Assembly (NCBI RefSeq): GCF_902506435.1
Contig: NZ_LR733215.1
Location: 829,540-893,539 of the forward strand
Direction: 5' to 3'
Length of the DNA: 64,000 nucleotides
DNA from: Nocardioides sp. AX2bis
GTDB lineage: Bacteria; Actinomycetota; Actinomycetes; Propionibacteriales; Nocardioidaceae
Positions within the stretch are counted from its first letter, which is position 1, and every line of letters begins with the position of its first letter. Shown here piece after piece: positions 6,536 through 61,467 of this stretch. The position numbers were made by a program, and so were the translations under genes. The notes beneath the pieces are model-generated. The model searched no databases, was not told the origin of the DNA, and saw only the letters and a program-made list of their open reading frames with translations.

Positions 6536-6581
6536 GTCGTGTGCCTGAGAGCGGTCCGGGGACCGTCCTCAGGCACACGAC
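6536..6581. repeat. 46-bp palindromic repeat, copy A
   Basis: Runs from GTCGTGTGCC to GGCACACGAC with a CGGTCC/GGACCG centre. The 22-nt arms pair at 20 of 22 positions around a 2-nt centre. It lies between the convergent ends of the WS/DGAT gene and an acyl-CoA dehydrogenase gene and could fold as a bidirectional terminator. Four more copies of identical length occur at 28330, 29386, 29469 and 61422. Confidence 0.85.
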
Positions 6582-6594
6582 CTGGTCGCGCGGG

Positions 6595-7737
6595 TCAGTG
6601 CAGCGGGTCGACGCCCTCGTGGTCGCCGATCCGGCCGACCAGCTCGCCGAGGTGGTGCGTGCCGTCGCCGAGCAGGTGGTCCAGCGCGGTGAGCCGGGCG
6701 ACGTGGTTGCCCACGGCGTACTCGGCGGTGACGCCGATGCCGCCGTGCAGCTGGATGGCCTCCTGGCCGACGTGGCGCGCGGCCCGCGAGACCTGCAGGG
6801 AGGTACGGCGGGCGGCGTCGGAGGCCGCCTGCGCGTCGCCGCTCATCAGCACCATCGTCGCCCACTGCACCATCGAGCTGGCCAGCTCGAGCGAGACGTA
6901 CATGTCCGCGGCGCGGAACGTGAGCGCCTGGAAGGTGTTCAGCGTGACGCCGAACTGCTTGCGGCTCTTGAGGTAGTCGGTGGTGAGCCGCAGCGCGGTC
7001 TCCATCGACCCCAGCGCCTCGTTGGCGGCGGTGATGCGGCCGACGTCGAGGATGGTGGCCACGGTGGACTCGCGGTCGGCGACCTCGCCCAAGGGCGTGG
7101 CCGACGTGCCGGAGAAGGTGACCTTCGCCGCGCGGCCGCCGTCGTAGGTCCGGTAGGAGCTGCGCTGCAGGTCGGCGGCGTCGCCGTCGACCAGGAAGAG
7201 GCCGGTGCCGCCGTCGGGCAGCGCCGCGGTCACCACGAGGGTGTCCGCGCGGGCACCCTGCACGACCGGCTCCTTGACGCCCTCGAGCGTCCAGGCCCCG
7301 CCCTGCTCGGTGGCCGTGACCGCCGAGGCGGTCGGGACCCAGCCGCGGCCGGGCTCGTCGTGGGCCAGGGCGAGCACGCGCTCGCCCTCGGCGACCGCGC
7401 CGAGGATCTCCTCGCGCTGCTCGGCCGACCCGGCCGCGGAGACCAGGCCGCCGGCCAGGACCACGCAGGCCAGGAACGGCTCGGGCGCGATGACGCGTCC
7501 CAGCTCCTGGGCCACGATGCCGATCTCGACCGGTCCGGCGCCGACGCCGCCGTCGGACTCGGCGAACGGCAGCCCGAGGATGCCCATCTCGGCCATCCGC
7601 GCCCACTGCTTCTCGTCGAAGCCGGGGTCCTCGTTGACCGTCTGGCGGCGGTGCTCGTGGTCGGAGTACGTCTTGCCGACCAGGCCGCGCACCGCGTCGC
7701 GCAGGGCGACCTGCTCGTCGTCGTAGGTGAAGTCCAT
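6595..7737 (-). CDS. Acyl-CoA dehydrogenase, probable partner subunit
   Basis: 380-residue acyl-CoA dehydrogenase family protein. YLKSRKQFGVTLNTFQAL (helix at the flavin site) and LHGGIGVTAEY are conserved. The segment that should carry the catalytic Glu (YEGT) reads LLGDGTHHL, so that base is absent. It follows another acyl-CoA dehydrogenase by 16 bp in the same operon. Actinobacteria commonly build alpha2-beta2 acyl-CoA dehydrogenases from such pairs (ChsE/IpdE type for steroid side-chain or ring acyl-CoAs), in which one chain lacks an intact site. That pairing is inferred from adjacency. Confidence 0.88.
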   Translation of the reverse strand: MDFTYDDEQVALRDAVRGLVGKTYSDHEHRRQTVNEDPGFDEKQWARMAEMGILGLPFAESDGGVGAGPVEIGIVAQELGRVIAPEPFLACVVLAGGLVSAAGSAEQREEILGAVAEGERVLALAHDEPGRGWVPTASAVTATEQGGAWTLEGVKEPVVQGARADTLVVTAALPDGGTGLFLVDGDAADLQRSSYRTYDGGRAAKVTFSGTSATPLGEVADRESTVATILDVGRITAANEALGSMETALRLTTDYLKSRKQFGVTLNTFQALTFRAADMYVSLELASSMVQWATMVLMSGDAQAASDAARRTSLQVSRAARHVGQEAIQLHGGIGVTAEYAVGNHVARLTALDHLLGDGTHHLGELVGRIGDHEGVDPLH

Positions 7738-7753
7738 GTCTGTCCCGTCCCCC

Positions 7754-59488: not shown

Positions 59489-59789
59489 GGCGGCCTCCTC
59501 GTGCTGGTCGGGCCCCCATCATGCCCGCGACCGGCGGTCCAGACCGCCGCGCGCCGGCGGCGTGACCCGGGCGGGCCGACCTCGTTGAGGCCGTCGTACC
59601 CCGGTGTCACACCGCTCCCTCCGGCACCATCGACGCCGGGTACGCCCCGGGGCCCTCGTGGCACCGGGAGGCGCAGGGCCCGGCCGTACCTCCCTCCCCG
59701 GCCGGGCCCGCCCGCGTCCGCGGCCGATACGATGACGGCTCCGTCGGACCCCGTCGGACCGCAGTGACCCGCACGTCGAGAGGGCCCGG
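59489..59789. other. Intergenic region upstream of guaA
   Basis: No gene is supported here. It holds a small hairpin (GGCGGTC, CA, GACCGCC at 59533-59548) and a likely guaA -10 box TACGAT (59728-59733), leaving a leader of about 50 nt that contains CCGTCGGACC twice and a GAGAGGG ribosome site. No known purine riboswitch was recognised. Confidence 0.5.
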
Positions 59790-61373
59790 ATGACGCACGC
59801 GACCGACCACGACCTGGTGCTGGTGGTGGACTACGGGGCGCAGTACGCGCAGCTGATCGCCCGCCGCGTGCGCGAGGCGAAGGTCTACTCCGAGATCGTG
59901 CCCCACACGATGCCGGTCGAGGAGATGCTGGCCCGCAACCCGAAGGCGGTCATCCTCTCCGGCGGCCCGTCCTCGGTCTACGAGCCGGGCGCGCCGCAGC
60001 TCGACGGTGCCCTGGTCGACGGCCGGGTGCCGGTGTTCGGGATCTGCTACGGCTTCATGGCCATGGCCGCCGCGCTCGGCGGGACCGTCTCGCGCACCGG
60101 CCAGCGCGAGTACGGGCGTACGCAGGTCTCGGTGCTCGAGCCCGGCACCCTGCTCCAGGGCGTGCCGGACGAGCTCGTCTCCTGGATGTCGCACGGTGAC
60201 GAGGTGACGATCGCCCCCGAGGGCTTCACCGTCAACGCGCGCTCGCCGCGCGCCACCGTCGCGGCCTTCGAGGACGTCGAGCGCAAGATCGCCGGGGTGC
60301 AGTGGCACCCCGAGGTGATGCACTCCGAGCACGGCCAGGCCGTCCTGGAGCACTTCCTGCACGACATCGCGGGCTGCCGGCCGACCTGGACGATGGTCAA
60401 CATCGTCGAGGAGCAGGTCGCGGCGATCACCGCGCAGATCGGCGACCGGGGCAAGGCGATCTGCGGCCTCTCCGGCGGCGTCGACTCCGCCGTGGCCGCC
60501 GCGCTCGTGCAGCGTGCCATCGGGGACCGCCTGACCTGCGTCTACGTCGACCACGGGCTGATGCGACAGGGCGAGACCGAGCAGATCGAGCGCGACTTCG
60601 TCGCCGCGACCGGCGCCGACCTGGTCGTCGTCGACGCCGAGGAACGCTTCCTCACAGCGCTGGCCGGCGTCAGCGACCCCGAGGAGAAGCGCAAGATCAT
60701 CGGTCGCGAGTTCATCCGCGTCTTCGAGGCCGCCGAGGCCGACATCCTCGGCGACGCCGTGACCGGCGAGGACGCCGACACCGTCGCCTTCCTCGTCCAG
60801 GGCACGCTCTACCCCGACGTGGTCGAGTCCGGCGGGGGAGCCGGCACCTCGACGATCAAGAGCCACCACAACGTCGGCGGCCTGCCCGACGACCTGCGCT
60901 TCGAGCTCGTCGAGCCGCTGCGCACGCTGTTCAAGGACGAGGTGCGCCTGGTCGGCGAGCAGCTCGGCCTGCCCGCCGACCTCGTCTGGCGCCACCCGTT
61001 CCCCGGCCCCGGGCTCGGCATCCGGATCGTCGGCGAGGTCACCCGGCACCGCCTCGACGTCCTCCGCGCCGCCGACGCCATCGCCCGCGAGGAGCTCACG
61101 GCCGCCGGTCTCGACCGCGACATCTGGCAGTTCCCGGTCGTCCTGCTCGGCGACGTCCGCTCGGTCGGTGTCCAGGGCGACGGCCGGACGTACGGCCACC
61201 CGATCGTGCTGCGGCCGGTCACCAGCGAGGACGCGATGACCGCCGACTGGGCACGCCTGCCCTACGACGTGCTGGAAAGGATCTCGACCCGCATCACCAA
61301 CGAGGTCGACGAGGTCAACCGGGTGGCGCTGGACATCACCAGCAAGCCGCCGGGGACGATCGAGTGGGAGTGA
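59790..61373 (+). CDS. guaA: GMP synthase (glutamine-hydrolysing)
   Basis: 527 residues: class I glutaminase (1-200) with Cys86 in FGICYGFMA and WHPEV, ATP-pyrophosphatase domain with GLSGGVDSAV (Ser228-Ser233 loop), and the dimerisation domain ending KPPGTIEWE. Converts XMP made by GuaB to GMP. ATG 59790 follows GAGAGGG. It is convergent with the cNMP-binding gene across two repeat elements. Confidence 0.97.
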   Translation: MTHATDHDLVLVVDYGAQYAQLIARRVREAKVYSEIVPHTMPVEEMLARNPKAVILSGGPSSVYEPGAPQLDGALVDGRVPVFGICYGFMAMAAALGGTVSRTGQREYGRTQVSVLEPGTLLQGVPDELVSWMSHGDEVTIAPEGFTVNARSPRATVAAFEDVERKIAGVQWHPEVMHSEHGQAVLEHFLHDIAGCRPTWTMVNIVEEQVAAITAQIGDRGKAICGLSGGVDSAVAAALVQRAIGDRLTCVYVDHGLMRQGETEQIERDFVAATGADLVVVDAEERFLTALAGVSDPEEKRKIIGREFIRVFEAAEADILGDAVTGEDADTVAFLVQGTLYPDVVESGGGAGTSTIKSHHNVGGLPDDLRFELVEPLRTLFKDEVRLVGEQLGLPADLVWRHPFPGPGLGIRIVGEVTRHRLDVLRAADAIAREELTAAGLDRDIWQFPVVLLGDVRSVGVQGDGRTYGHPIVLRPVTSEDAMTADWARLPYDVLERISTRITNEVDEVNRVALDITSKPPGTIEWE

Positions 61374-61421
61374 GGCGGGCGCCCTGACCTCCGGGACGGG
61401 ACGGGTCGCCCGGCGTACGGG

Positions 61422-61467
61422 GTCGTGTGCCTGTGCACGGTCCGGGGACCGTGCTGGGGCACACGAC
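61422..61467. repeat. 46-bp palindromic repeat, copy E
   Basis: GTCGTGTGCCTGTGCACGGTCC and its mirror across GG; again exactly 46 bp. It lies 48 bp after guaA in a convergent gap, as copies A and B do, and 63 bp before locus 3 of the 22-bp repeat. Confidence 0.85.

Follow-up and report, generated by a model that had tools for sequence, protein, structure and literature searches.

The window analysed here, a 64,000-nucleotide stretch of Nocardioides sp. AX2bis, carries five copies of a 46-bp palindrome, and three of them (28330, 29386 and 29469) flank the sole gene between them, 28363-29316 on the minus strand, whose product is a predicted nuclease. The pairing of this enzyme with its target is well supported: it recurs across the genus and, with other arms, in other genera of actinobacteria. 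We propose that the palindromes are probably the recognition sites of the 28363-29316 protein and that, as small non-autonomous elements, they probably owe their spread to it. Recognition by the protein, taken alone, is very probable; spreading with its help we hold to be only slightly favoured. The features are the following.

6536..6581, unstranded: palindrome copy 1, 46 bp, in a convergent gap whose two stop codons are 16 bp and 13 bp away
28330..28375, unstranded: palindrome copy 2, 46 bp, at the 3' end of the nuclease gene, in a convergent gap
28363..29316, minus strand: candidate cognate enzyme gene, 317 amino acids, AbiEi-like plus DUF559/Vsr-like predicted nuclease
29386..29431, unstranded: palindrome copy 3, 46 bp, 69 bp upstream of the called start of the nuclease gene
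29469..29514, unstranded: palindrome copy 4, 46 bp, between the nuclease gene and the next gene
61422..61467, unstranded: palindrome copy 5, 46 bp, in a convergent gap, 48 bp past a gene that is presumably guaA, judging by its sequence

The original prediction had described these five copies correctly: each is 46 bp long, with ends GTCGTGTGCC and GGCACACGAC and a CGGTCC-NN-GGNCCG centre, and none appeared in 100 shuffles. Its reading of the gaps, convergent at 6536, 28330 and 61422, divergent at 29386 and 29469, agrees with our gene calls, which were made throughout with our own simple codon-usage script. Copy 2 even provides the final codons of the nuclease gene, TCG TGT GCC and the stop TGA. 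The unmismatched 10-mer of the arm is confined, in the window, to these palindromes. A DNA-uptake-type 10-mer was considered and rejected, since 10-mers with at most one mismatch are not enriched (15 found vs 15.3 expected), and no Rfam family reached its gathering score in the window.

More copies lie elsewhere: the whole genome holds 24 exact ones, every one of 46 bp though 40-52 bp was permitted, and 30 at up to three arm mismatches, the reversed-pattern control giving 0. Exact copies are present in 30 of 147 genomes of the genus, with up to 81 per genome. The length is nearly fixed in this draw, 73 of the 76 listed sites measuring 46 bp and the other three 45, 45 and 35 bp. The scan of a species collection gave at least 114 stretches, and 79 of 80 among the matches listed belong to Nocardioides or Nocardioidaceae. 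The lone same-arm palindrome outside Nocardioidaceae, among the matches listed, is in Streptomyces toyocaensis (locus L065, 5081).

For the product of 28363-29316, prediction gives an AbiEi-type DNA-binding module and, fused to it, a Vsr/EDxHD-like nuclease. The predicted model displays the AbiEi fold and a nuclease fold of the EDxHD/PD-(D/E)XK kind, in which acidic and His residues are conserved; E210, D242, E256, H262, D271 and R274 are invariant across 31 aligned sequences. A sequence search of the PDB gave none at E <= 1, tblastn against plasmids gave no match, and NCBIfam had no family for the window protein. Its window neighbours we take, from their sequence, to be acpS and nnr.

A homologue at E <= 1e-40 is found in 54 of the 147 genus genomes. 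We gathered 62 gene loci: the window, 58 others from the homologue search (L140-L197), and L040, L043 and L111 from the species collection, L086 being excluded as a duplicate of L146. A qualifying palindrome stands on both sides of the gene in 30 loci, on one side in 14 and on neither in 18. Among the latter, weaker palindromes are seen in L140, L164 and L185, L160 has a palindrome inside the end of the gene, and those without any palindrome include L154, L157-L159, L161, L163 and L167. Palindrome pairs spaced by about 1 kb also recur in other genomes and, in those with loci at hand, the same gene lies between them in the window, L043, L086 and L111.

The arms diverge together with the gene. 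The two arms flanking one gene match at 9.7 of 10 letters, vs 6.9 between loci, and 0 of 20,000 shuffles reached the observed sum. At least five arm types occur at the single acpS-nnr position, so that the specificity changed in place. Dispersed copies tend, in the 147-genome draw, to share the arm type of the genome's own gene, and a genome with two genes (G056; L144 and L186) has two distinct palindrome types. At least five GTCGTCCGCC copies are found with no gene at E <= 1e-40 in eight genomes (G010, G038, G048, G066, G101, G121, G131 and G135). That the letters of the palindrome differ together with the protein across relatives makes it likely that the protein recognises the palindromes.

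The same arrangement is seen beyond this gene. In its own genome a second gene (G000:C8:2542431, locus L136), a paralogue of 36% identity lying between what are, by their sequence, presumably rseP and ispG, is bracketed by 46-bp palindromes GACGTCATCC...GGATGACGTC at L136 1416-1461 and 2544-2589. No matching-arm pair was seen around the more distant paralogues L137-L139, only single palindromes at chance level. In a profile search across the class, 125 of 296 genomes had homologues at E <= 1e-25, as did 59 of the 114 genera sampled. For 29 loci (L270-L298), of which 22 belong to other genera, the two flanks of the gene, upstream and downstream, were set against 200 mismatched pairs: the stretch shared by the flanks scored above the 95th percentile of these pairs in 23 loci (16 of the 22 from other genera) and above all 200 of them in 17 (11 of the 22). 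In many cases the shared stretch is a palindrome, about 42-52 bp long and with arms of its own. The pairing of gene and palindrome is thus recurrent in other actinobacterial genera.

We compared the acpS-nnr position in 20 relatives. The two genes are 0-13 bp apart in seven (G002, G007, G012, G017, G019, G022 and G024), 26-157 bp apart and devoid of this palindrome in five (G001, G003, G011, G015 and G147), and at least 665 bp apart in six (G005, G013, G014, G018, G021 and G023), the interval of G013 containing its copy of the gene. G009 has a gap of 413 bp with two palindromes. The gap of G010 (L225) holds a different palindrome of about 60 bp, GTAGTCCCTGACGTTTCCGG...

For the comparison of empty and filled sites that the original prediction had called for, none of the 147 genomes offered a close relative at site 6536 (best 79%). 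The closest relative found, G165, comes from a wider draw of 215 and is 95% identical over the guaA end of the query. We could place 14 exact copies out of 24 in G165: four are absent (6536, 61422, 334274 and 2163908, each with further local differences, so that none is a clean empty site), seven are present, and a three-copy cluster corresponds to a single copy; the ten not placed are C7:3253, 1710690-1711065 (three), 1881962, 1884160, 3231683-3231861 (three) and 3248254. Absence at 6536 rests on the G165 sequence itself, the alignment there being forced by gap costs; at 61422 the gap is also shorter. The gene-flanking copies are conserved with differing interiors: 28330 is kept with its interior changed, 29386 with one arm mismatch, and 29469 is kept as well. 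At 750700, G165 has the palindrome and an adjoining gene which our genome lacks there. Copies come and go between close relatives. Site 6536 of G165 (L241, near 8640) has, instead of the palindrome, a different long hairpin, CTGTAACGCTGTGTTAC...GTAACACAGCGTTACAG.

Pairing within the palindrome was analysed on 151 distinct genus copies, i.e. 23 of our own 24 (L001 excluded) and L016-L129 minus the Streptomyces locus L065. The outer arms (positions 1-10) are invariant in this set because the search required it. The bases between end and centre had been said to vary in step on both arms; this stands for the inner stem only, positions 16-20 pairing at 0.62-0.86, clearly above the shuffled 0.41-0.68. 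Positions 11-15 pair at about the shuffled rate (0.45-0.52 at 11, 12, 14 and 15, at or near the shuffled 0.36-0.57; 0.76 at position 13, slightly above 0.68). The centre looks lineage-specific. The flanks are biased too, with G at -1 and -2 in 125 and 116 of 150 copies and C at +1 and +2 in 117 and 120, so that the element is nearer 50 bp than 46 bp.

The action of the protein might be pictured as follows. Two monomers would bind, one per 23-bp half, by analogy with AbiEi on two 23-bp inverted repeats, and we propose that this is why the length is fixed at 46 bp. The copy ahead of the start codon would be an operator. The nuclease may cleave one or both strands at the palindrome, and repair of the break could then copy the palindrome, or the whole palindrome-gene-palindrome unit, elsewhere, mostly just behind genes; binding, cutting and spreading would all be the work of this enzyme. 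The earlier idea of a non-autonomous element served by an enzyme in trans fits with this picture—a candidate gene between copies, co-divergence, gain and loss—except for the type of enzyme it suggested. The least supported step is cutting with subsequent repair. The ends bear no duplication: target-site duplications, the mark of a DDE-type miniature inverted-repeat transposable element, show no excess over shuffles for k = 2-9 in 150 copies. We count G020 against our proposal, as it has 81 exact GTCGTGTGCC copies while the arms flanking its gene are one letter off.

One could alternatively consider the palindromes as bidirectional terminators or stabilisers of mRNA 3' ends, the RNA hairpin being what is selected, which we find rather unlikely as the whole explanation. 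The location of the copies does go in this direction. The 151 copies comprise 57 convergent, 66 tandem and 9 divergent ones, 7 within called genes and 12 at locus ends; among gaps of 40-600 bp, those with a palindrome are richer in convergent ones (43 of 106, vs 53 of 357 without) and poorer in divergent ones (7 of 106 vs 130 of 357), and an upstream stop codon is at most 60 bp away in 122 of 180 distances (median 28 bp). Dispersed copies thus sit behind genes and shun divergent, i.e. promoter, gaps. The selection for RNA structure envisaged in the original prediction nevertheless finds little support: the T-run of an intrinsic terminator is lacking on either side (no position from +1 to +12 has T in more than 32 of 150 copies), and in the 66 copies oriented by transcription G-T mismatches do not significantly exceed A-C ones (49 to 37, P = 0.12). 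Termination also leaves unexplained the invariant 10-bp arm, the near-fixed 46 bp, the copy before the start codon, and arms differing by lineage with the gene. As G165 has another hairpin in place of the palindrome at 6536, terminator use may be real, and it may be a secondary use of the palindromes rather than an exclusive rival.

It is unlikely that the gene is a homing endonuclease unit inserted into pre-existing palindromes, which would then be its targets and not its cargo. The predicted EDxHD-like fold would suit this, as would palindromes on both sides, such as insertion into one would leave; moreover acpS or nnr is close by in only 20 of the 62 loci (both in 15), so that the gene sits at several places. 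On the other hand, the 0-13 bp between acpS and nnr in the seven relatives above leave no room for a palindromic target, and among the 24 exact copies only three, all in the window, stand on either side of this gene.

Still more doubtful is a transcription regulator whose regulon has the palindromes as operators. AbiEi proteins autorepress through inverted repeats (PMC7319586), and in many loci one palindrome is upstream of the gene, often about 55 bp ahead of the start chosen by our script. But the preference of dispersed copies for the ends of genes over promoter gaps is not that of operators, and in the nuclease part acidic and His residues are kept invariant in 31 sequences. Finally, that these are repetitive extragenic palindromic (REP) elements moved by a Y1 (HUH) REP-associated tyrosine transposase (RAYT) encoded elsewhere in the genome, as the original prediction suggested, is highly improbable and largely refuted: location outside genes, clusters and stop-codon overlap are REP-like (PMC3733652), but PF01797 has no match in 20 of 20 palindrome-bearing genomes (control positive in 5 of 14), so that the system, despite its resemblance to REP/RAYT, is a different one.

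A second dispersed repeat, CGCRAGCGTCAYCTCG, forms runs with a 22-bp period at 14724, 53557-53638 and 61538-61597 of the window (8 matches at up to one mismatch vs 0.06 expected), and runs of this kind also adjoin palindrome sites in L130 and G165. Another family of 46-bp palindromes, GTCGTGGGTC...GACCCACGAC, lies beside the first at L010 1585 and L015 1561, and in G165 at L249 1583 and L251 2322.

Among known systems, the type IV toxin-antitoxin AbiE, with its antitoxin AbiEi (6y8q, Rv2827c), shares the AbiEi fold of the predicted model; here, however, a nuclease forms the C-terminus, the window neighbours are by sequence presumably acpS and nnr and not a toxin like the adjacent DUF1814-type one of AbiE, and the sites are dispersed in the genome. 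The EDxHD homing endonucleases (I-Bth0305I) share the predicted nuclease fold and its conserved acidic and His residues; they differ, as do the Vsr-like DUF559/MTES_1575 nucleases, from the present AbiEi-fused enzyme, a free gene between palindromes. REPs flank their enzyme gene. A REPtron is likewise made of dispersed extragenic palindromes and a dedicated co-evolving enzyme whose gene they flank, whereas the enzyme here is an AbiEi-nuclease fusion. REP palindromes have a dedicated enzyme that co-evolved with them (PMC8266576), and one of their ends carries an unpaired tag, GTAG or CGTC (PMC3733652); the 46-bp palindrome of the window type starts with GTCG and is two-fold symmetric to its end, without such a tag. 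Our literature search, with most subscription journals outside its coverage, met no title or abstract opening describing a palindrome-nuclease pairing.

These data may finally point, with about equal chances for and against, to undescribed mobile palindromes of actinobacteria: a lineage-specific AbiEi-endonuclease fusion would recognise and cut its own palindrome of about 46 bp, driving palindromes and its own unit through genomes, and would acquire new specificities while staying at one locus. This would be a parallel to REP/RAYT, invented separately and based on an unrelated enzyme. To our knowledge, the movement of palindromes by an enzyme has been proposed only for Y1 transposases. A large and little-annotated group of actinobacterial proteins gains a testable substrate, which in many loci can be read from the neighbouring DNA. 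Should the palindromes indeed be moved by the enzyme, an antitoxin/homing-type nuclease would be doing what Y1 transposases were proposed for, and nature would offer, in its many enzyme-palindrome pairs, a ready set for studying how DNA specificity changes.
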